NCBI RefSeq assembly: GCF_020009625.1
Contig: NZ_JAIHLP010000002.1
Span: 1,178,001 to 1,242,000, forward strand
Reading direction: 5' to 3'
From: Leifsonia poae
GTDB lineage: Bacteria; Actinomycetota; Actinomycetes; Actinomycetales; Microbacteriaceae
Length of the DNA stretch: 64,000 nt
In this document: in pieces, positions 14,280 to 59,407 of the stretch
Numbering within the stretch: the first letter of the stretch is position 1
Layout: every line of letters begins with the position of its first letter
Notes under the pieces: generated by a model
What the model saw: the letters and a program-made list of their open reading frames with translations, nothing else
Told to the model about the DNA's origin: nothing
The model's database searches: none
Program-made: the position numbers and the translations under genes

Positions 14280-15530
14280 TCAGGTCGTGGAGCGGTTCCG
14301 TCGGCTGAGAGCGTCGACGGTGACCGCGGCGAGCAGCACCAGTGCCGTCACCATCAGCTGCGTGGCCGCCGACAGGTTGAGCAGACCCATGCCGTTGTAG
14401 ATCGTGGCGACGATCAGACCACCGAGCAGGGCGTGGACGATCTTGCCGCGACCGCCGAAGAGGCTCGTGCCGCCGATCACCGCCGCGGCCACCGCGAGCA
14501 GCACGTACTGGCCGCCGTCGACGTTGCTGGAGATCGAGCCGAGCCTGGCCGCGTAGAAGATGCCCGCGGCGCCGGCGGTGAGGCTAGCCAAGGCGAATGC
14601 GATCAATCGGATGCGCGACAGGTTGATGCCGGCTCGACGGGCGGCCTCCGCGTTGCCGCCGATCGCGTAGACATACCGCCCGAACCGGGTCTGCGCGAGC
14701 AGGAAGCTCCAGCCGGCGACGATGGCCAGCACGATCGGAACAGCCCACGGCACGCCCTCCCCTGCGCTGCAGGCCAGCACGAGGGCGATCCCCGCCGCGG
14801 CGATCAACGCGATCTTCACGATCCTGAGGCCGACCGGCTGGGTGACGAGCCCTCCCGCACGGCGTTGCCGATCGCCCACCAGCGCGAAGACTGCGTAGGC
14901 CGCCACGACCAGCGCGAGCACCACCCAGGCGAGAACGGTGTTCATGTACCCGTAGGCGATGGCGTTGATCACCGCATTGCTGACCGACATGGTGCCGCCG
15001 CTGCTCGGACCCGCCAGACCGTTGATGACGAAGATCAGCAGACCCTGCAGGCCGAGCAGCCCGGCCAGCGTGACGATGAACGACGGGATGCGGAGCCGTG
15101 TGATGAGGAACCCCCACACCGCGCCGATGATCGTGGCGACAGCGAGCCCGAGGAGCACACCCACATACCAGGGCAGGTTGTAAGGCGGCCCGGTGATCCA
15201 CACCGTGAAGACGGCACCGATGGCGCCGGTGAAGCCCAGCGCCAGGTCGATCTCGCCGAGGAGCAGCACGAACACTTCCGCGACGCCGAACAGTACGAAC
15301 ACCGAGGCCTGCACCATCAGATTGATGATGTTGTTCGGCGACAGGAAGACTGAGTTGTTCAGCTGGAAGATGATGATGATGACGATCAACCCGCCGACGA
15401 CCGGCAGCACCCCGCTCTCGCCGGAGCGGATGCGTGCGATCCAGGCCCGGAAGTAGCCGCCCAGGGTGGCGGCGGGGCGACCGGGCACATCGGCGACGGG
15501 CGGGGTCGCCGGTTCCGTTGAAGTGGACAT
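14280..15530 (-). CDS. Sugar ABC transporter permease (XylH-type)
   Basis: A 416-residue inner-membrane permease of the BPD_transp_2 (ribose/xylose) family with about ten hydrophobic segments. Typical landmarks are SPNNIINLMVQASVFVLFGV, LGEIDLALGF, GGNAEAARRAGIN (the EAA-like loop that contacts the ATPase) and VLLAVAAAVIGGTSLFGGRG. Its ATG overlaps the stop of the ATPase gene (TGATG at 15528-15532), so translation is coupled. It is the last gene of the sugar block. A pyrimidine tract with hairpin potential follows. Confidence 0.92.
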   Translation of the reverse strand: MSTSTEPATPPVADVPGRPAATLGGYFRAWIARIRSGESGVLPVVGGLIVIIIIFQLNNSVFLSPNNIINLMVQASVFVLFGVAEVFVLLLGEIDLALGFTGAIGAVFTVWITGPPYNLPWYVGVLLGLAVATIIGAVWGFLITRLRIPSFIVTLAGLLGLQGLLIFVINGLAGPSSGGTMSVSNAVINAIAYGYMNTVLAWVVLALVVAAYAVFALVGDRQRRAGGLVTQPVGLRIVKIALIAAAGIALVLACSAGEGVPWAVPIVLAIVAGWSFLLAQTRFGRYVYAIGGNAEAARRAGINLSRIRLIAFALASLTAGAAGIFYAARLGSISSNVDGGQYVLLAVAAAVIGGTSLFGGRGKIVHALLGGLIVATIYNGMGLLNLSAATQLMVTALVLLAAVTVDALSRRNRSTT

Positions 15531-16354
15531 CAGTACTCCCGACCGTTGCTGTTCGAGACGGTTCCCGTGGTGATCAGCTCGACGGCCGTGTTCACGGTCA
15601 ACTCGCCGACCGGGGCGGTCCGGGCGAGCGTGCCGAGATACATGACGGCGATCCTGTCGGCCACCTCGAACACGTCATTGAGGTTGTGGGATACGAGCAG
15701 CACGGCGATGCCGTTGGTGCTGAGGCGTTTGATCAGATCCAGCACCATCGAGGTCTGCGAGACACCGAGCGCGGCGGTCGGTTCGTCCATGATGACCAGC
15801 TTCGCGTCCCACATCACGGCTCGGGCGACGGCGACGGCCTGCCGTTGGCCGCCGGAGAGCGACGACACCAATTGGCGGATCGAGCTGACCGTGGTGACGG
15901 AGAGCTCGCTCAGTGTCTGCTTCGCCTTGGTCTCCATGACGGATTCGTTCAGCAGGAGGCCGTCGTGCAGCATCTCGCGCCCGAGGAACATGTTCTGAAC
16001 GATGTCCAGGTTGTCGCACAGGGCGAGATCCTGGTAGACAGTCTCGATCCCGAGCGCGGAGGCGTCGCGCGGTCCACCCATGTGCACAGGCCGACCGTTC
16101 CACAGCATCTCCCCGCCGTCGATCGTATGGATCCCCGCGATGGATTTGATCAGGGTCGATTTGCCGGCGCCGTTGTCACCGACGAGCGCCGTGACCTTAC
16201 CGGCGGGCAGATCGAGATCGATGCCTTTCAGCGCCTGAACGGGACCGAAATGCTTGCTGATCCCTCGCAGGCTCAGCAAGGGCGTCTCGTCGTCGAGCAG
16301 AGCCCGCCCGGCCGGTGTCCCGGCCGGGCGGGCATCCGCTAGCTCCTCGCTCAC
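15530..16354 (-). CDS. Sugar ABC transporter ATPase, single-domain (XylG/FrcA-type)
   Basis: A 274-residue ABC ATPase with Walker A GDNGAGKST, Q-loop VYQDLAL, signature SSLSGGQRQ, Walker B LVIMDEPTAALG and H-loop LVSHNL. It corresponds to only the first half of the usual ~500-residue RbsA/XylG proteins, so a second ATPase copy or another ABC domain must complete the pair. I chose GTG 16354 because it overlaps the TGA of the binding-protein gene (GTGA). The long upstream extension of the frame has no family character. It is sandwiched between the binding protein and the permease. Confidence 0.9.
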   Translation of the reverse strand: MSEELADARPAGTPAGRALLDDETPLLSLRGISKHFGPVQALKGIDLDLPAGKVTALVGDNGAGKSTLIKSIAGIHTIDGGEMLWNGRPVHMGGPRDASALGIETVYQDLALCDNLDIVQNMFLGREMLHDGLLLNESVMETKAKQTLSELSVTTVSSIRQLVSSLSGGQRQAVAVARAVMWDAKLVIMDEPTAALGVSQTSMVLDLIKRLSTNGIAVLLVSHNLNDVFEVADRIAVMYLGTLARTAPVGELTVNTAVELITTGTVSNSNGREY

Positions 16355-17565
16355 GAGGTCGGGATTCCGGCAGCCTTGCACGCCGCCGCGAACGACGAGG
16401 TGCACAGTTGAGCGGCGGTCACGAACTTGTCGGCGATGACCGTAGAGTTCATGTTGCTCGTCGTCACCCATTCCGGCTTCAGCAGCACGGACGGCACGGC
16501 GACTTTGCTGACGGTGTCCATGGTCGACCCGTTGACCAGGCCGGCTGGGGGCGTCACGTCCGCCCGCAGGTACATCGCGAGCGCTGCCGCTGCCTGAGCC
16601 TCGAGATAGATCGGCTTGTAGGCGGTGCCGCATTGGTACCCGGACAGGATGTTCTGCAGCCCCACCAGCGTCGCGTCCTGACCGGTGATCGGGAACGCCT
16701 TCTCCTTGATGCCGTGGTTCTTCAGGTACGTGATGATCGGGGCGGCGTTCTCATCGTTCGGAACGAGTGCGGCATTGGCGTTCGGGTGAGCGGTGTACGC
16801 CTGGGCGAACTCGGTCGCCGCTGTGGGCGGGTCCCAGGTTCCGGCCGGTTCAGCGACCTTGGTCCAGCCCGAGCTGTAGAGCGGGTTGAGCACCGAGTCG
16901 TAGCCCTGCGCGAAGAGTGTCGCGTTGTTGTCGGTCGGGTCACCCTTCATCTCGATGACTGCCGGCTTGCTCACATTCCAGTCCTTCGTGCAGGTCACGA
17001 GCCCGTTGCCGATCAGCTCGCCGACCTTCACATTGTCGAAGCTGACGTAGTAGGCGCGGGTGCCTCCGAGCGTCAACCGGTCGTAGTCGATGACCTTCAC
17101 GCTGTGCTGCTTGGCATACTCCTCGATCTTCGCGCCGACACCGGCGTCGAGCGGGTCGACGACGAGCACCTTGGAGCCGGCGGTGATCGCGGATTGGGCG
17201 TCCGTGAGCTGAGTGGCATCACTGCCTTGCGCGTTCTGGACGGTGAACTGGCTCGACGTCAGGCCGGCAGCCGTGAACGCCTCCTTCAGATACGGGGCGT
17301 CGAACTCCGTGTAGCGCGCCGAGGAAACCGTGTCCGGCAGGATGACCGTCACATTGCCCGTTCCCTTCGAGGCGAGCGGCTTGAGCGCCGCCATGCTCGA
17401 GAAGTCGCGCTTGAACGATGTCGCCGATGTGGCGGCGAGCGCCGCCTCCGTGGTGGACGGACTCGATGACGAACCGGACGACGACCCGGAGCTGGCGCAT
17501 CCGGCCAGCACCACGGCCGTACTCACCAGGACGGCGGCGACGCCCACTGTTTTCTTGATCTGCAT
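16351..17565 (-). CDS. Sugar-binding lipoprotein of the ABC importer (XylF-type)
   Basis: A 404-residue periplasmic-binding-protein-like lipoprotein with lipobox VVLAGC (Cys23) and a Ser/Gly linker. The Peripla_BP_4 fold shows in VTVILPDTVSSARYTEFDAP, SKVLVVDPLDAGVGAKI, VIDYDRLTLGG and FPITGQDATLVGLQNILSG, as in XylF/ChvE. It should capture a monosaccharide, probably D-xylose or a related sugar, outside the membrane. ATG 17565 has an ideal GAGGAG seven bases upstream. It starts the importer part of the block, 180 bp after the response regulator. Confidence 0.92.
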   Translation of the reverse strand: MQIKKTVGVAAVLVSTAVVLAGCASSGSSSGSSSSPSTTEAALAATSATSFKRDFSSMAALKPLASKGTGNVTVILPDTVSSARYTEFDAPYLKEAFTAAGLTSSQFTVQNAQGSDATQLTDAQSAITAGSKVLVVDPLDAGVGAKIEEYAKQHSVKVIDYDRLTLGGTRAYYVSFDNVKVGELIGNGLVTCTKDWNVSKPAVIEMKGDPTDNNATLFAQGYDSVLNPLYSSGWTKVAEPAGTWDPPTAATEFAQAYTAHPNANAALVPNDENAAPIITYLKNHGIKEKAFPITGQDATLVGLQNILSGYQCGTAYKPIYLEAQAAAALAMYLRADVTPPAGLVNGSTMDTVSKVAVPSVLLKPEWVTTSNMNSTVIADKFVTAAQLCTSSFAAACKAAGIPTS

Positions 17566-17659: not shown

Positions 17660-17725
17660 AGCCTAAGAATCGCGGCATGAACGAGCCGTAAATAATCGGC
17701 CGCCGGCATCAACAAAACATCAACG
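17660..17725 (-). promoter_or_regulatory. Putative importer promoter with response-regulator direct repeats
   Basis: On the minus strand, GTTGATG occurs twice (plus-strand CATCAAC at 17708-17714 and 17719-17725) with an 11-bp period, the spacing preferred by OmpR/PhoB-family dimers. A TAGGCT -10-like box follows at 17665-17660, about 43 bp downstream. This suggests activation of the binding-protein/ATPase/permease genes by the adjacent response regulator. It is a prediction from spacing only. Confidence 0.5.
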
Positions 17726-17744: not shown

Positions 17745-18449
17745 TCAATACGCGGCGAACCGATACCCGGCGCGCGGCTCGGTCAGGATGAGCGTCGGCT
17801 GTCCCCCGACCTCCAGTTTGGAGCGGAGTCGCCGCACGTAGACACGAAGATACTCGGTCTCGGTTTCGTACCCCGGCCCCCAGACCTGCCGCAGCAGGAA
17901 CGCGTGCGAGAGCAGCATCCCGGGCTGAAGCGCGAGCTCGCGCAACAGGGCGAACTCGGTCGGAGTCAGGTGGATCGCGACTCCCTCGCGGCTGACCTGT
18001 TGCTTGCTCAGATCCACCACCAACCCGCTGATCTGGAGCACCGGAGGGGTGTCCTCCGGTGCGGCGGCCGGCCGGGATCGCCTCAGTGTCGCGGTGATCC
18101 GGGCGAGCAGTTCGTCGATGCCGAACGGCTTCGTCATGTAGTCGTCCGCCCCGACGTTCAGGGCGGCGACCTTGTCGCGCTCTCCGCCGCGCGCCGAGAT
18201 GACGATGATACCGATGCTCGAGTGGCCCCGGATCTGCTGGCACAGCTCGATGCCGTCGGCGGCGGGCAGCATCAGGTCCAGGAGCACGATGTCCGGACGC
18301 TCGGTCTCGAGCAGGCGCAGCACCCGCGATCCGTCGGAGGAGACGACGGTGTCGAAGCCCCGAACGGTGAGGTTCGCCCGGATCAGGTCGACGATGTTGG
18401 GGTCGTCCTCGACCATCAGCACCTTGGTCCGCGCGGTGTCGTCACCCAT
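17745..18449 (-). CDS. OmpR/KdpE-family response regulator
   Basis: A 234-residue two-domain regulator. The receiver domain has the acidic pair (VEDDP, residues 14-16), phospho-acceptor Asp58 in VLLDLMLP, and Lys in DDYMTKPFG. The C-terminal winged helix shows LTPTEFALLRELALQPG and the YLRVYVRRLRSKLE recognition region. The N-terminus overlaps the end of the kinase fusion gene by 8 bp, so the two form a cognate pair. Its likely target is the sugar importer downstream, where an 11-bp-spaced direct repeat lies. Confidence 0.93.
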   Translation of the reverse strand: MGDDTARTKVLMVEDDPNIVDLIRANLTVRGFDTVVSSDGSRVLRLLETERPDIVLLDLMLPAADGIELCQQIRGHSSIGIIVISARGGERDKVAALNVGADDYMTKPFGIDELLARITATLRRSRPAAAPEDTPPVLQISGLVVDLSKQQVSREGVAIHLTPTEFALLRELALQPGMLLSHAFLLRQVWGPGYETETEYLRVYVRRLRSKLEVGGQPTLILTEPRAGYRFAAY

Positions 18450-20916
18450 CGTCCGGCTCTGTCATCAAGACGGGCGATTCCACGGGAAGCCGGATCACGG
18501 AACGTGTTCCGGGTTCCATCGGATGCTGTCGGAGCGTCCCGTGGTGCGCATCCACGATGCCGCGCGTGATCGACAGACCGAGGCCGGCGCCGGCGGTGCG
18601 GTCGCGCCACGAATGCGCCGACGTCGGGCCGGCGCCCTCGTTCCTCGGCGGCATGCCGACGCCGTTGTCGACGACCTCGATGACCACATCGTCGGCCCCC
18701 TCAGCCCGGACCTCGACGCGCACGGCCGTGCCCGGCGGGTTGTGCCGGACCGCGTTGTCCATGAGGTTCATCATCACCTGTTCGAGCCGGTCGTGGTCGG
18801 CCCAGACGACAGGGACATCGTCTGCACAGCTGACCTCGATCGCCGCGGCGGCTTGTGGTGACAGACACGCCAGGGCCGCGTCGACCACCAGGGACAGGTC
18901 GACCCAATCGGGTCGCAAGCGCAGCATGCCCGATTCGATCATCGAGAAGTCGAGCAGATCGTCCACGAGCCGGCCCAGCCGTGCCGACTCACCGCTGATC
19001 CTGCTGAGGAACCGACGCTCGGAGTCGTGATCCCACGTCACGTCGGTCTGCATCAAGCTGGACGCCGAGCCGTGGATCGCCGTGAGCGGTGTGCGCAACT
19101 CGTGGGAGAGACGGGCGAGGAACTGGCTCTGCATCTCTTGCGAGCGGCGGAGCGCAGCCATCTCGCGGCGCGCCAGCTCGATGTGCTCCCGCTCCTGGGC
19201 GAGCAGGATCGAATGCCCGGCATCCTCGAGCAGCACCCGATCTTCGGCGCCGACGAGACGGGTGGACCACTCCGCGGCGAGCACGGTGGCCTCAGAGACC
19301 CGAACGAGCAGTCGGCTTCCGCCGTCGGCCAGGGACGAGACGTGCGCATGTCCTCGATCGTCGAGCAGGCTGAGACCCGACTCGACGGCCGACGCGAGCC
19401 GATCCGAGGGCGCGCTACCGAGGGAACCGGCGAACGCCCGGCAGGACACACCCTCGTCGTCGGCGTGCCCGTAGAGGCCGACCTCGTCGGCACCCACCGC
19501 CTCCCGCAGAGCGCTCAGCGCCGTGCTGATCCTGTCGGTGAGCGAGTCCGCCCCCGCCAGCGTTTGGAGAATCGCGCGGATCGTCTCCAATATCTTGTTC
19601 CGCGCGGTCAGCTCTGCCAGCAGCCGTTCCCGTTCGAGCGCCGTCGCCGCATACCCGGCGTAGAGGTTGACCAGATCGAGCTCTTCGCTGTCTGGCGACC
19701 CGATGTCCGGGCGGTAGATGTTGATCACCCCGCGCAGGTCGCCGCCGCTGGAGAAGGGGATGGCCCACCAGCTCGCGATCCCGGACTCGCGGAGCAGCGG
19801 TGCGAAGGGCGCCAGCGCTTCACTCGCCGTCACATCCGCGACGACGACGACGACATTGTCGGCGACAGCCGACGACGGCGGCGGCGGCGGCCCATTCGTG
19901 GTGGCGTTCAGCGGAACGCGGCGCCACGTCTCGTCCAGCGCCCGCGACAGACCGACCGAACCGACACAGCTCAGCGTGGGCCCGTCGAGCACGTGCAGGC
20001 TGAGCTGCTGGGTTCCCAGCGCCGCGCCGAGGGTCGAGAGGATGAGAGTGAGCCCCGCAGACGGCCCGGCCGAGCTGAGACGGCCGGCCGCGGTGAGCTG
20101 GTCGGCCAGGCCGTGCAACCGGCTCAGCTGGCGGCGCGGGGCGGAGGATGCGTCGTGCCCCGCCATGAGAGCGAGCAGCTCGTCCGGATGCGACCAGGCC
20201 GGATCGACCTGCGCCACGACCCGACCGTGTCGCAGCACGATCACCCGACCGGTGAGCCGGAAGAGCTGGTCGACGTCGTGCGAGATCAGCAGGATCGTGG
20301 TGCCGTCGTCGCGGAGCCGAAGGATCAGCTGTTCGACGTGGGCGGAATCGGCGCGACTCAGGACCGCGGTGGGCTCGTCGAGAAGCAATAGCCGCGGAGG
20401 CGGTGAGACGGATCTCGCCACGGCGAGGAGCTGACGTTCCGCCGCGGTGAGCGTTCCCACCATTCGGGTCGAGTCGGCGATCGGAATGCCGAGGTCGTCG
20501 AGGACCGCCCGCGCCCGGGCGTGGAGCCTCGACTCGGACATGAGCAGCCGACGTCGCTCTTTGCCGAGCATGAGGTTGGTCGCGACATCGAGGTTGTCCG
20601 ACAGCGCCAGATGCTGCCACACGACGCCGATCGTGCCGAGGGTGCGCGCCGACGGGTGGGCTGCCGGGTGCTCACCGTCGAGCCAGATCTCGCCCCGCGT
20701 CGCGCTGAGGTCGCCGCAGATGCACCGCAGCAGCGTCGACTTGCCGGCCCCGTTGTCGCCGGCGATGCCGACGATCTCACCGGGATAGACGTCCAAGTCG
20801 ACATCACGGAGAGCCGCCAATGGGCCGTAGTTGACCGCCAATCCACGTGCTCGAAGAACGGCCGACCCCGACCGTGCTTCCCTGACCGCGTGCGCCGCCA
20901 TAGTGGTCATTATCAC
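18442..20916 (-). CDS. Fusion of a sugar-importer ABC ATPase domain, GAF-like domains and a histidine kinase
   Basis: An 824-residue soluble protein with no membrane segment. Residues ~20-250 are a CUT2-type ABC ATPase: Walker A GDNGAGKST (53-61), Q101, signature-like TLTAAERQ (155-162), Walker B LLLLDEP (D180, E181) and H-loop SHD (212-214). Residues ~260-440 and ~445-585 look like two GAF domains; the first has a proline run (343-347). The kinase follows: H-box SHELRTP with His605, N-box near 717-721, G1 DNGVGMP (750-756) and G2 GAGLGLS (776-782). It overlaps the response regulator gene. The start may be GTG 20916 or ATG 20910. All catalytic motifs of both enzymes look intact apart from the weak ABC signature. 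Confidence 0.93.
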   Translation of the reverse strand: MIMTTMAAHAVREARSGSAVLRARGLAVNYGPLAALRDVDLDVYPGEIVGIAGDNGAGKSTLLRCICGDLSATRGEIWLDGEHPAAHPSARTLGTIGVVWQHLALSDNLDVATNLMLGKERRRLLMSESRLHARARAVLDDLGIPIADSTRMVGTLTAAERQLLAVARSVSPPPRLLLLDEPTAVLSRADSAHVEQLILRLRDDGTTILLISHDVDQLFRLTGRVIVLRHGRVVAQVDPAWSHPDELLALMAGHDASSAPRRQLSRLHGLADQLTAAGRLSSAGPSAGLTLILSTLGAALGTQQLSLHVLDGPTLSCVGSVGLSRALDETWRRVPLNATTNGPPPPPSSAVADNVVVVVADVTASEALAPFAPLLRESGIASWWAIPFSSGGDLRGVINIYRPDIGSPDSEELDLVNLYAGYAATALERERLLAELTARNKILETIRAILQTLAGADSLTDRISTALSALREAVGADEVGLYGHADDEGVSCRAFAGSLGSAPSDRLASAVESGLSLLDDRGHAHVSSLADGGSRLLVRVSEATVLAAEWSTRLVGAEDRVLLEDAGHSILLAQEREHIELARREMAALRRSQEMQSQFLARLSHELRTPLTAIHGSASSLMQTDVTWDHDSERRFLSRISGESARLGRLVDDLLDFSMIESGMLRLRPDWVDLSLVVDAALACLSPQAAAAIEVSCADDVPVVWADHDRLEQVMMNLMDNAVRHNPPGTAVRVEVRAEGADDVVIEVVDNGVGMPPRNEGAGPTSAHSWRDRTAGAGLGLSITRGIVDAHHGTLRQHPMEPGTRSVIRLPVESPVLMTEPDDG

Positions 20917-20961: not shown

Positions 20962-21738
20962 TTAGAGCACCTTCGAGAGGAAGGCCTGCGTTCGCTGGTG
21001 CTGCGGATTGGCGAGCACTTCGCGGGGGTCGCCGGATTCGACGACCACGCCGCCGTCCATGAAGACGAGCTCGTCGGCGACCTCGCGGGCGAACCCCATC
21101 TCGTGCGTGACGACGATCATGGTCATCCCGGATGCGGCGAGACCCTTCATCACGTCGAGGACCTCGCCGACGAGCTCGGGGTCGAGGGCGGAGGTGGGCT
21201 CGTCGAACAGCATCAGCTTCGGGTCCATCGCCAGTGCCCTCGCAATCGCGACGCGCTGCTGCTGTCCGCCCGACAGGTGCGCCGGGTAGTGGTCGCCCTT
21301 CTCGCCGAGACCGACCCGGGTGAGCAGCTCCTTCGCGCGAGCAACAGCTTGCGCCTTCGGCACGCCTTTGACCCGCATCGGCGCTTCGACGATGTTCTCC
21401 AGTGCTGTCATATGCGGGAACAGGTTGAAGCGTTGGAACACCATCCCGATCTCGCGGCGCTGGCGGGAGGCCTCCTTGGGCTTGAGCTCGTAGAGCTTGT
21501 CGCCCTGCTGGCGGTAGCCCACGAGCTGACCGTCGACGGAGAGCCGGCCGGCGTCCACCCGTTCGAGGTGGTTGATGCAGCGCAGGAACGTGGATTTGCC
21601 CGAGCCGCTGGGGCCGACGATGCAGAGCACCGCCCCCGGTTGCACCGACAGGGAGATGCTCTTCAGCACCTCGTTGGAGCCGAAGCTCTTGGAAACGCCT
21701 TCGGCCAGCACCATCGGGGTCGTCGTCGTGTCGCTCAT
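20962..21738 (-). CDS. Polar amino acid ABC transporter ATPase (GlnQ-type)
   Basis: A 258-residue ABC ATPase with Walker [11 protein letters not shown]-loop [12 protein letters not shown], signature [15 protein letters not shown], Walker [15 protein letters not shown] and H-loop VTHEM, all exact PAAT-family forms. GGAGG lies six bases before ATG 21738; an ATG three bases earlier is closer than ideal. The start overlaps the permease stop by one base. The binding protein, permease and this ATPase form a three-gene importer operon. Confidence 0.95.
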
Positions 21739-22733
21739 CATTTGCCTCCGCTGAGCCTGTCGGGGCCGGCTTCGCCGGCGGTGCCGTCGACGGCCGCCAC
21801 CGCGCCGGTCAGCGCGTCGTCGCGCCGTTCGGGTCGGCGCGCGTTGACTCCGCGCGAGAAACGTTTCTCCAGGAAGTACTGTCCGACCATCAGGATCGAG
21901 GTGAACAGCAGATACCAGATGGATGCCACGATCAGCAGCGCCACAGGGGTGTACGTCACTGCCGAGATCCCGCGTGCCACACCATAGAGGTCGGAGGTGA
22001 GCGGGATGGCGGCCACCAGCGACGTGGTCTTCAGCATCGAGATCACCTCGTTGCCGGTCGGCGGGATGATCACCCGCATGGCCTGCGGGATGACGATGCG
22101 CACCATCGTGTGTCCCCACGACATGCCGAGAGCCGTCGCCGCCTCTTCTTGACCGCCGTCGACCGAGAGCAGGCCGGCCCGCACGATCTCCGCCATGTAC
22201 GCGGCCTCGTTCAGCGCCAGGCCGATGATGGCGATGATGAACGCGTTCTGCATGAAACCGAGGTCGAACGACACACCCCAGTCCGTCCACGGGACCCCGA
22301 GGAAGATCTTCGGGTAGATCAGCGAGAACAGACCCCAGAAGACGAGTTGCACGTACACCGGCGTGCCCCGGAAGATCCAGAGGTAGAGCCAGGCGACTGC
22401 TTTGACCACCGGGTTCGGCGAGAGCCGCATGACCGCCAGGCAGAGGCCGAGGATCACGCCGATGACCATCGCGTACACGGTGAGCTGCAGGGTGACGAGC
22501 GCCGCCGCGCTGATCCGCTGATCGAAGAGGTATTTGCCGACGTACGGCCAGTTGTAGTCCTTGCGCTGCGAGGCGTCCACGATGAACCAGACGAGCAGCA
22601 GGACCAATACCACGGCGAAGACGATCCGCCACGGGTGTCGGAGCTTGATCGCTTTGATCGGCTCCGAGGGCGGGGCGCCGGCCGGCGACGGGGTCGACCC
22701 CATCGCCGGCCGGCTCTGGTTGCCCAGAGACAT
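21738..22733 (-). CDS. Polar amino acid ABC transporter permease
   Basis: A 331-residue HisMQ-type permease. A cytoplasmic N-terminus of ~35 residues is followed by about five membrane segments. The [12 protein letters not shown] motif, [19 protein letters not shown] (the EAA loop region) and [17 protein letters not shown] are typical. It probably works as a homodimer, since no second permease gene is present. ATG 22733 lies five bases after the binding-protein stop, so translation is coupled. The charged Arg/Asp C-terminal tail of ~40 residues is longer than usual. Confidence 0.93.
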
Positions 22734-58625: not shown

Positions 58626-59407
58626 GTCGTCGTGCCCGGGCCGGGCTCGTCGAAACCGACGAACATCGTCGTGTGCAACACGAGGATGTGCTGTTGCGCG
58701 ATCTGCACGGCGCGCACCGGATCATGTCGCCGAAGGGCCTCGACGATGTCGGAATGGTCGCGATTGGCGTCGTGCAGGTAGTCGATGGGGTACGGGATGA
58801 AGTAGCGGTAAAGACGGTAAAGCACGTCGGTGTAGTGCGGGATCGCCCAGTCGAGGCCGGATGCACTGGCCAGGCCGAGGTGGAATCTCTCGTCGGCGGC
58901 GTGATACTCCGTCCAGTTCTGCGCGGCGGCCGCGGCGGCCACGTGTTCGTCGAGTGCGGCGATCTGCTCAGGTGTCGCGGCGAGCGCCGCCTGATGCACG
59001 AGCGCCGATTCGAGCAGAGTCCTCAGCTCGATCAGCCGGTGTACCTCGACGGCGTCGGCCCGGTAGGCCTCGACGGCATTGTCCTCGGTCGCCGGGGCCC
59101 GCTCGGCGACGAAGGTACCGCCGGCGCGTCCGCGTCGGCGCTCGACGACTCCGTCGTCGGCGAGCGAGCGCAGGGCACGTCGCGCTGTGATCTCGCTCAC
59201 GTCGAGAGCCGCGGCGATCTCGGCGTCGGAGGGGAGCTGCTCCCCCGCGCTGAGCATCCCGTGATCGATCGCAAGCACGATTCGGGCTCGAACGGTGTCG
59301 GCCGCTGAGAGCCGGGTGATCCCGGCCAGGACCGGCGCGCTCAGCGGGGCGGCAGAAGGCCCGGCGGAGTTGTCCAGTTCATCGGCGACGGAGCTCACGG
59401 TGACCAC
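58622..59407 (-). CDS. GntR-family regulator (FadR subfamily)
   Basis: A 261-residue regulator. The winged helix contains QLPSDAEIAAALDVSEITAR (DNA recognition), followed by the all-helical FCD effector domain with the metal-binding residues suggested by DERFHLGLA. It probably controls the divergent nitrilase/permease genes, whose intergenic region holds a palindrome. GTG 59398 is an alternative start; both follow TCTAAAGT closely. Confidence 0.9.
   Translation of the reverse strand: MVTVSSVADELDNSAGPSAAPLSAPVLAGITRLSAADTVRARIVLAIDHGMLSAGEQLPSDAEIAAALDVSEITARRALRSLADDGVVERRRGRAGGTFVAERAPATEDNAVEAYRADAVEVHRLIELRTLLESALVHQAALAATPEQIAALDEHVAAAAAAQNWTEYHAADERFHLGLASASGLDWAIPHYTDVLYRLYRYFIPYPIDYLHDANRDHSDIVEALRRHDPVRAVQIAQQHILVLHTTMFVGFDEPGPGTTT

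Follow-up and report, generated by a model that had tools for sequence, protein, structure and literature searches.

An ABC ATPase-histidine kinase fusion encoded with a CUT2-type sugar importer in actinobacteria: a candidate sensor of sugar uptake

The 64-kb stretch of DNA analysed here (64,000 nucleotides, referred to as the window) carries a run of five genes on the minus strand, which encode in reading order a histidine kinase fused to an ABC ATPase, a response regulator, a XylF-like binding protein, a single-domain ABC ATPase and a permease. The kinase ORF (18442..20916) has 824 codons from a GTG, and the real start is probably the ATG at 20910, two codons in, because the database copy of the protein (P0002) has 822 aa. 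The regulator gene (17745..18449) overlaps the kinase gene by 8 bp (18442-18449), as stated in a preliminary description of this DNA, and it is followed by the genes of the binding protein (16351..17565), the importer ATPase (15530..16354) and the permease (14280..15530), all on the minus strand. Upstream of the kinase, an ORF on the same strand (20962-22632) ends 45 bp before the kinase ORF and contains a GlnQ-like amino-acid-importer ATPase, so read-through into the kinase gene may occur. No GlnQ-like ATPase was seen upstream of the kinase in another locus with the fusion, L101.

Pfam analysis of the kinase showed ABC_tran (residues 36-184), GAF (290-428), HisKA (595-663) and HATPase_c (707-813) domains. 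On the minus strand, the whole ABC ATPase domain (residues about 20-255) corresponds to 20152..20859, the first GAF domain (residues 286-409 in the predicted model) to 19690..20061, and the HisKA domain with His605 together with HATPase_c (residues 595-813) to 18478..19134. Two GAF-like regions had been proposed; the first is the one found by Pfam, and the second is a GAF-like fold at residues 459-556 (19249..19542, minus strand) that appears in the AlphaFold model only. The model has a mean pLDDT of 78.1 and a pTM of 0.38, and its arrangement of the domains is therefore unreliable. A Foldseek search with the model gave a bacteriophytochrome as the first PDB match, over 637 columns with low TM-scores of 0.19/0.21, and most of the next PDB rows were ABC ATPases. 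The phospho-accepting histidine, N box and G boxes of a HisKA-type histidine kinase are all present. His605 and Asn717 are kept in 249/249 fused sequences (9 from loci and 240 from the database, one of the latter being the window's own copy; some genes are represented twice), which agrees with the complete kinase described earlier. Hydropathy analysis indicated no membrane helix in the kinase, again as described, since the highest 19-residue value was 1.54 compared with 2.73 in the permease.

The regulator contains the receiver and Trans_reg_C domains of the OmpR/PhoB type, with Asp58 as the acceptor. Among its best 25 NCBIfam rows it reaches no equivalog cut-off, and KdpE is among the best regulator profiles; the preliminary description assigned it to the KdpE/OmpR type. 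The Peripla_BP_4 binding protein, the ABC ATPase with a canonical LSGGQ signature and the BPD_transp_2 permease form a CUT2 sugar importer encoded in one operon. As all three proteins score below the NCBIfam cut-offs (xylF, 154.8 of 389.55; xylG, 181.9 of 723.65; best permease row GguB, 221.8 of 450), the importer is called XylFGH-type here and not XylFGH; the label given previously holds in this sense, and the importer ATPase has a single ABC domain as claimed.

The fused ABC domain of the window contains Walker A (residues 53-61), the Q-loop Gln101, Walker B Asp180/Glu181 and the H-loop His213, all canonical, and a degenerate signature, LTAAE, at residues 156-160. It had been called an intact CUT2-type domain. 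The CUT2 type was confirmed, and the full intactness was not, because LTAAE stands in place of LSGGQ and the window copy thereby departs from an active ABC ATPase with all motifs canonical. Across the 249 fused sequences, the nucleotide-binding and catalytic residues are nearly invariant (Lys59 in 248, Gln101 in 246, Asp180 in 249, Glu181 in 249 and His213 in 246); the signature reads LSGGQRQ in 210 and LTAAERQ in 11, the latter being the clade of the window. The catalytic residues are intact in 23 of the 24 independent loci described below. The exception is L127 (10148-13408, minus strand), where the fused ABC has lost the Q-loop Gln and the H-loop His and the operon has no importer ATPase gene; ATP hydrolysis by the fused domain therefore cannot be needed everywhere. 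In double CUT2 ATPases, the first halves have diverged signatures and Walker A is changed in most of the second halves. Since those first halves also diverge in the signature, the fused ABC of the window clade may correspond to one member of an asymmetric pair, the other member possibly being the operon ATPase.

The segment from the Q-loop onward, QDLALCDNL, is closer to importer ATPases than the remainder of the fused domain is. The identities of segment and remainder were 0.63/0.37 against the operon-type ATPase, 0.59/0.36 against single-domain CUT2 ATPases not linked to a kinase, 0.40/0.34 against the first halves of double CUT2 ATPases and 0.24/0.31 against other ABCs. Kinase residues 106, 107 and 109 fall, by counting, in this segment. 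Judged from these comparisons, the segment that faces the permease in importer ATPases has been retained in the fused ABC. Because the ATPases of kinase-free importers have it too, the segment marks the kind of permease that fits and not binding itself. In phylogenetic trees the fused ABC groups with CUT2 ATPases and not with other ABC classes (93/89 in one tree and 91 in a second), and all fused ABCs cluster together, apart from the clade of importer ATPases (86/58 with 22 rows; SH-aLRT 85 with 24 rows). Given this branching, we reject the idea that the fused ABC was recently duplicated from the importer ATPase of the operon; it represents an old lineage of its own within the CUT2 group. One old fusion is the simplest reading of such a group, and a single origin has moderate support.

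A database search for the ABC-GAF-HisKA architecture and its link to response regulators and importers, as the preliminary description proposed, revealed a family with this linkage in 24 loci. Among 7999 candidates scored, 4906 matched the fusion kinase, and all of the best 120 of these 4906 matches, read by eye, had ABC and HisKA Pfam domains. Apart from the window's own copy P0002, the fusion architecture was found at 49-73% identity among the database matches listed. Within the best 120 of the 4906, P0024 (706 aa, on a 3-kb contig) has no HATPase_c and P0015 shows no GAF. In a further listing of 120 members, 2 (P0122 and P0123) are fusions without GAF. P0122 is a natural fusion of 503 aa encoded at L002:9959-11470, and P0123 is 84% identical to it; the GAF domains are dispensable in these two proteins. 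We take the named database matches to be actinobacteria, and the fusion kinase belongs to a large actinobacterial family. Its distribution is patchy: full-length fusions occur in 2/60 relatives, the window's genome included, and fusions occur in 4/396 genomes of the phylum (its own, G218, G314 and G137), in 1/396 genomes of the order (its own only), in 4/30 genomes of the order of G314 and in 16/248 genomes of the order of G137, G850 included. The match of G137 in the phylum scan covers the kinase end only, and the full fusion gene was read separately. A contig scan yielded mostly unrelated kinases among the 80 loci listed; L001, L002 and L003 were used as fusions, and L033 and L072 have separate, weakly similar genes that are not fusions.

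The gene neighborhood was compared in 24 independent loci (the window, L001-L003, L101-L105, L127, L145-L153 and L155-L159). L154 (G850) was dropped because it has the same sequence as L001, as checked on a 400-base piece. A response regulator adjoins the kinase in 24/24 loci, a homologue of the importer binding protein is present in 24/24, and the permease is present in all 23 that could be assessed, L002 ending inside the binding-protein gene. The proposed co-operonic arrangement of kinase, regulator and importer is thus conserved, and the fusion itself recurs with the same architecture in database proteins and in 23 further independent loci. In 19 loci the order is kinase, regulator, binding protein, ATPase and permease, L151 having two binding proteins.

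The usual importer ATPase is absent from four loci (L102, L127, L148 and L149), all of which keep the kinase and the permease. In L102 and L127 the operon lacks an ATPase gene altogether. The genome of L102, G314, has a complete second importer elsewhere with an ATPase of 60-61% identity, which could serve L102 in trans; in G824, the genome of L127, which is 64% complete, no other match above 30% identity was found. L148 and L149, from the same genus, have another importer between the regulator and the binding protein, with an ATPase 40% identical to that of the window, and their genomes contain no full-length match above 40%; one match of 42% over 161 residues was found in G900. At L148:6674-12846, the kinase-regulator pair is followed by two tandem importers, of which the first has a lipoprotein-like binding protein of its own, and L149 resembles L148 in gene order. 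Importers of the same type also occur without a kinase (L106 in the window's own genome, L108, L123, L124 and L125); the kinase and regulator have thus been added to an importer. L106:2839-6209 (minus strand) encodes a binding protein, an ATPase of 57% identity and a permease, with no kinase among the genes recognised there.

Between the regulator and binding-protein genes of the window lies a composite site (17664..17723, minus strand) of two TTNAY-N6-TTNAY pairs and a -10-like TA. The pairs start at 17723 and 17692, 31 bp apart, and the TA follows the last half-site by 11 bp. The repeat of the window alone is weak, as a perfect 7-mer repeat at the same spacing appeared in 20/2000 mononucleotide shuffles, and the signal is strong only across loci. 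Across eight loci, 12 TTNAY-N6-TTNAY sites were counted in the gaps that separate the regulator and binding-protein genes; 1000 dinucleotide shuffles gave 0.08 on average and never as many as 12. A pair was found within 300 bp of the regulator stop in 22/24 loci, including 14/14 held-out loci fetched after the motif had been defined; the held-out test concerns this simple pair and not the composite site. The remaining 821,794 strand-bases contained 8 sites, a background that predicts 0.003 per region. The two loci without the pair are L102 and L127, in which the regulator and binding-protein genes overlap or abut. No such pair was found upstream of the five importers without a kinase.

The spacing of the composite site resembles that in PhoB-class activation. 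All 10 loci with two perfect pairs have them 31 bp apart, with TAnnnT starting exactly 11 bp after the last half-site. A scan with fixed spacings found the composite site in 12/24 loci; once the spacing could vary (11-12 bp inside a pair, 31-32 bp from pair to pair), it was found in 15, 20 and 21 of 24 loci at 0, 1 and 2 mismatches, a scan that is not a held-out test because the spacing options were added after the loci had been seen. With up to 2 of its 16 letters off, the site occurs in 21/24 loci and nowhere else in these loci. Given the conserved regulator-type repeats near the regulator stop, the kinase-regulator pair most likely activates the importer operon. No repeat site was found upstream of the kinase gene in the 7 of 24 loci examined, which leaves autoregulation of that gene unsupported. 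Elsewhere in the 64-kb window one more TTNAY-N6-TTNAY pair occurs, at 58812 (minus strand); it is single and therefore probably due to chance.

The fusion, the conserved gene set, the catalytic and permease-facing residues and the promoter site can be read from the sequence itself, and we infer from them docking, the sign of the signal, phosphotransfer and activation. The reading that we favor, with somewhat more confidence than doubt, is an uptake-sensing unit. The kinase would be soluble and, in the manner of an importer ATPase, its N-terminal ABC would dock on the operon's permease at the cytoplasmic coupling helices, where its partner would be either the separate ATPase or the ABC from a second kinase chain. 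Docking of the sugar-loaded binding protein and ATP-driven movement of the ABC would be passed through helical linkers and the GAF domains, which may modulate or transmit, to the HisKA core; this core would phosphorylate Asp58 of the regulator, and the regulator would bind the two repeat pairs before the binding-protein gene and activate the importer operon. Docking of the kinase ABC on the permease is the best reading in our view, as is transport-linked sensing, and both gain support from the kept permease-facing segment and from the retention of kinase and permease in loci without the usual ATPase. Transport-linked sensing is also favored by the conserved regulator-type site that marks the importer promoter. 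The LTAAE signature of the window, the catalytic losses in L127, the lack of ABC-specific co-evolution with the permease, the old and separate ancestry of the fused ABC and the existence of the same importer type without a kinase argue against a simple form of this reading. In distance matrices of 23 loci, the values were 0.58 for ABC-permease and 0.66 for kinase core-permease, and the partial values were 0.38 (0/2000 permutations as high) and 0.50, respectively; as the kinase core tracks the permease as much as the ABC does, this result is not used as support. A stronger version, which we put forward tentatively, is that the kinase is the importer's own nucleotide-binding subunit, forming a mixed pair with the operon ATPase and acting by itself where the ATPase gene has been lost. 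If so, the transport steps and the kinase activity would belong to one machine. In lineages without the ATPase such as L127, whose fused ABC has lost catalytic residues, the importer may have turned into a pure transmembrane sugar receptor for the kinase.

Other readings assign the fused ABC a different partner or none. It might pair only with the separate importer ATPase and act as a titration sensor of free or idle subunits without docking on the permease, in the way that MalK restrains MalT. The combination of LTAAE and kept Walker motifs in the window clade with LSGGQ in the operon ATPase fits such an asymmetric pair, as do the diverged first halves of double CUT2 ATPases, and the operon ATPase gene stands in the same order in 19 loci; the kinase ABC nevertheless persists in L102 and L127, whose operons have no ATPase gene, and in L148 and L149, which have no ATPase of the cognate type, and we consider titration unlikely. 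Alternatively, the ABC might have no contact with the transporter and serve as a cytosolic sensor of ATP/ADP or energy charge, or as a dimerisation module, with kinase and regulator simply controlling an importer encoded next to them. This would account for the almost invariant nucleotide-binding residues, the separate old lineage and the lack of ABC-specific co-variation with the permease, but not for the strict link to one importer type in 24/24 loci or the kept permease-facing segment, which makes it rather unlikely.

The signal might also be a cytosolic sugar metabolite bound by the GAF domains, with the ABC as a passive leftover. Most members have two GAF-like domains and L127 has lost two ABC catalytic residues, as this would predict; the GAF-less P0122 and P0123 and the near-invariance of the ABC catalytic residues speak against it, and we regard it as quite improbable. 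An assembly or annotation artefact, or a chance neighborhood, was rejected as having a negligible probability: nothing positive favors it, several loci do come from metagenome-assembled genomes, and the 23 further independent loci and the database family contradict it.

If the uptake-sensing reading is true, an ABC ATPase is the sensory input of a two-component system across a large actinobacterial family, and the pairing of kinase and importer suggests that importer levels may be set by the cell's reading of its own sugar uptake. When transporter and kinase are separate membrane proteins, it is difficult to work out how the kinase learns of transport activity. The fusion kinase offers a single-chain form of such a system next to an operon that is its constant partner; its ABC residues can be mutated individually, a predicted promoter can serve as read-out, and the natural variants without GAF or without the importer ATPase offer further material for study.

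Several known systems link transporters to kinases. SLC5/STAC kinases (CbrA, CrbS and RpuS), described as transceptors, combine part of a transporter with a histidine kinase in a single polypeptide (PMC13022988, PMC7096432, PMC9100948, PMC5715377). In them the membrane symporter is itself fused, via the STAC domain; in the present kinase the fused part is a soluble ABC ATPase, a separate gene encodes the membrane part, and the kinase chain contains no symporter with membrane helices. In BceAB-BceS and PstSCAB-PhoU-PhoR, the kinase reads an ABC transporter and the regulator controls the transporter genes (PMC6978683). Transporter and kinase are separate proteins in those systems. By hydropathy, the fusion kinase is not a membrane kinase of the BceS kind. 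BceS and PhoR are membrane proteins, and to our knowledge neither carries an ABC domain. In clostridia, XylFII-LytS/YesN exerts two-component control of a xylose-type importer through the binding protein, which touches the membrane kinase directly. The fusion kinase is similar in its two-component link to a xylose-type importer and differs in having an ABC in the kinase; we know of no ABC domain in the LytS of that system. The S-component fold kinases (5TMR type) provide an evolutionary link between a part of ABC-type (ECF) importers and kinase sensors, and the excerpt names MCP, SpoIIE-like and NRAMP-like domains, not ABC, as new fusions of this fold (PMC11109136). What these kinases share, as described there, is the substrate-binding membrane fold and not the ATPase. 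Our searches of the open-licence PMC literature found no description of an ABC ATPase-histidine kinase fusion. With respect to KdpD/KdpE, the fusion kinase has neither the KdpD sensor domain nor its membrane helices, and its match to the KdpD profile is confined to the kinase core (residues 554-815), the part that is closest in sequence to KdpD among solved structures (6lgq).
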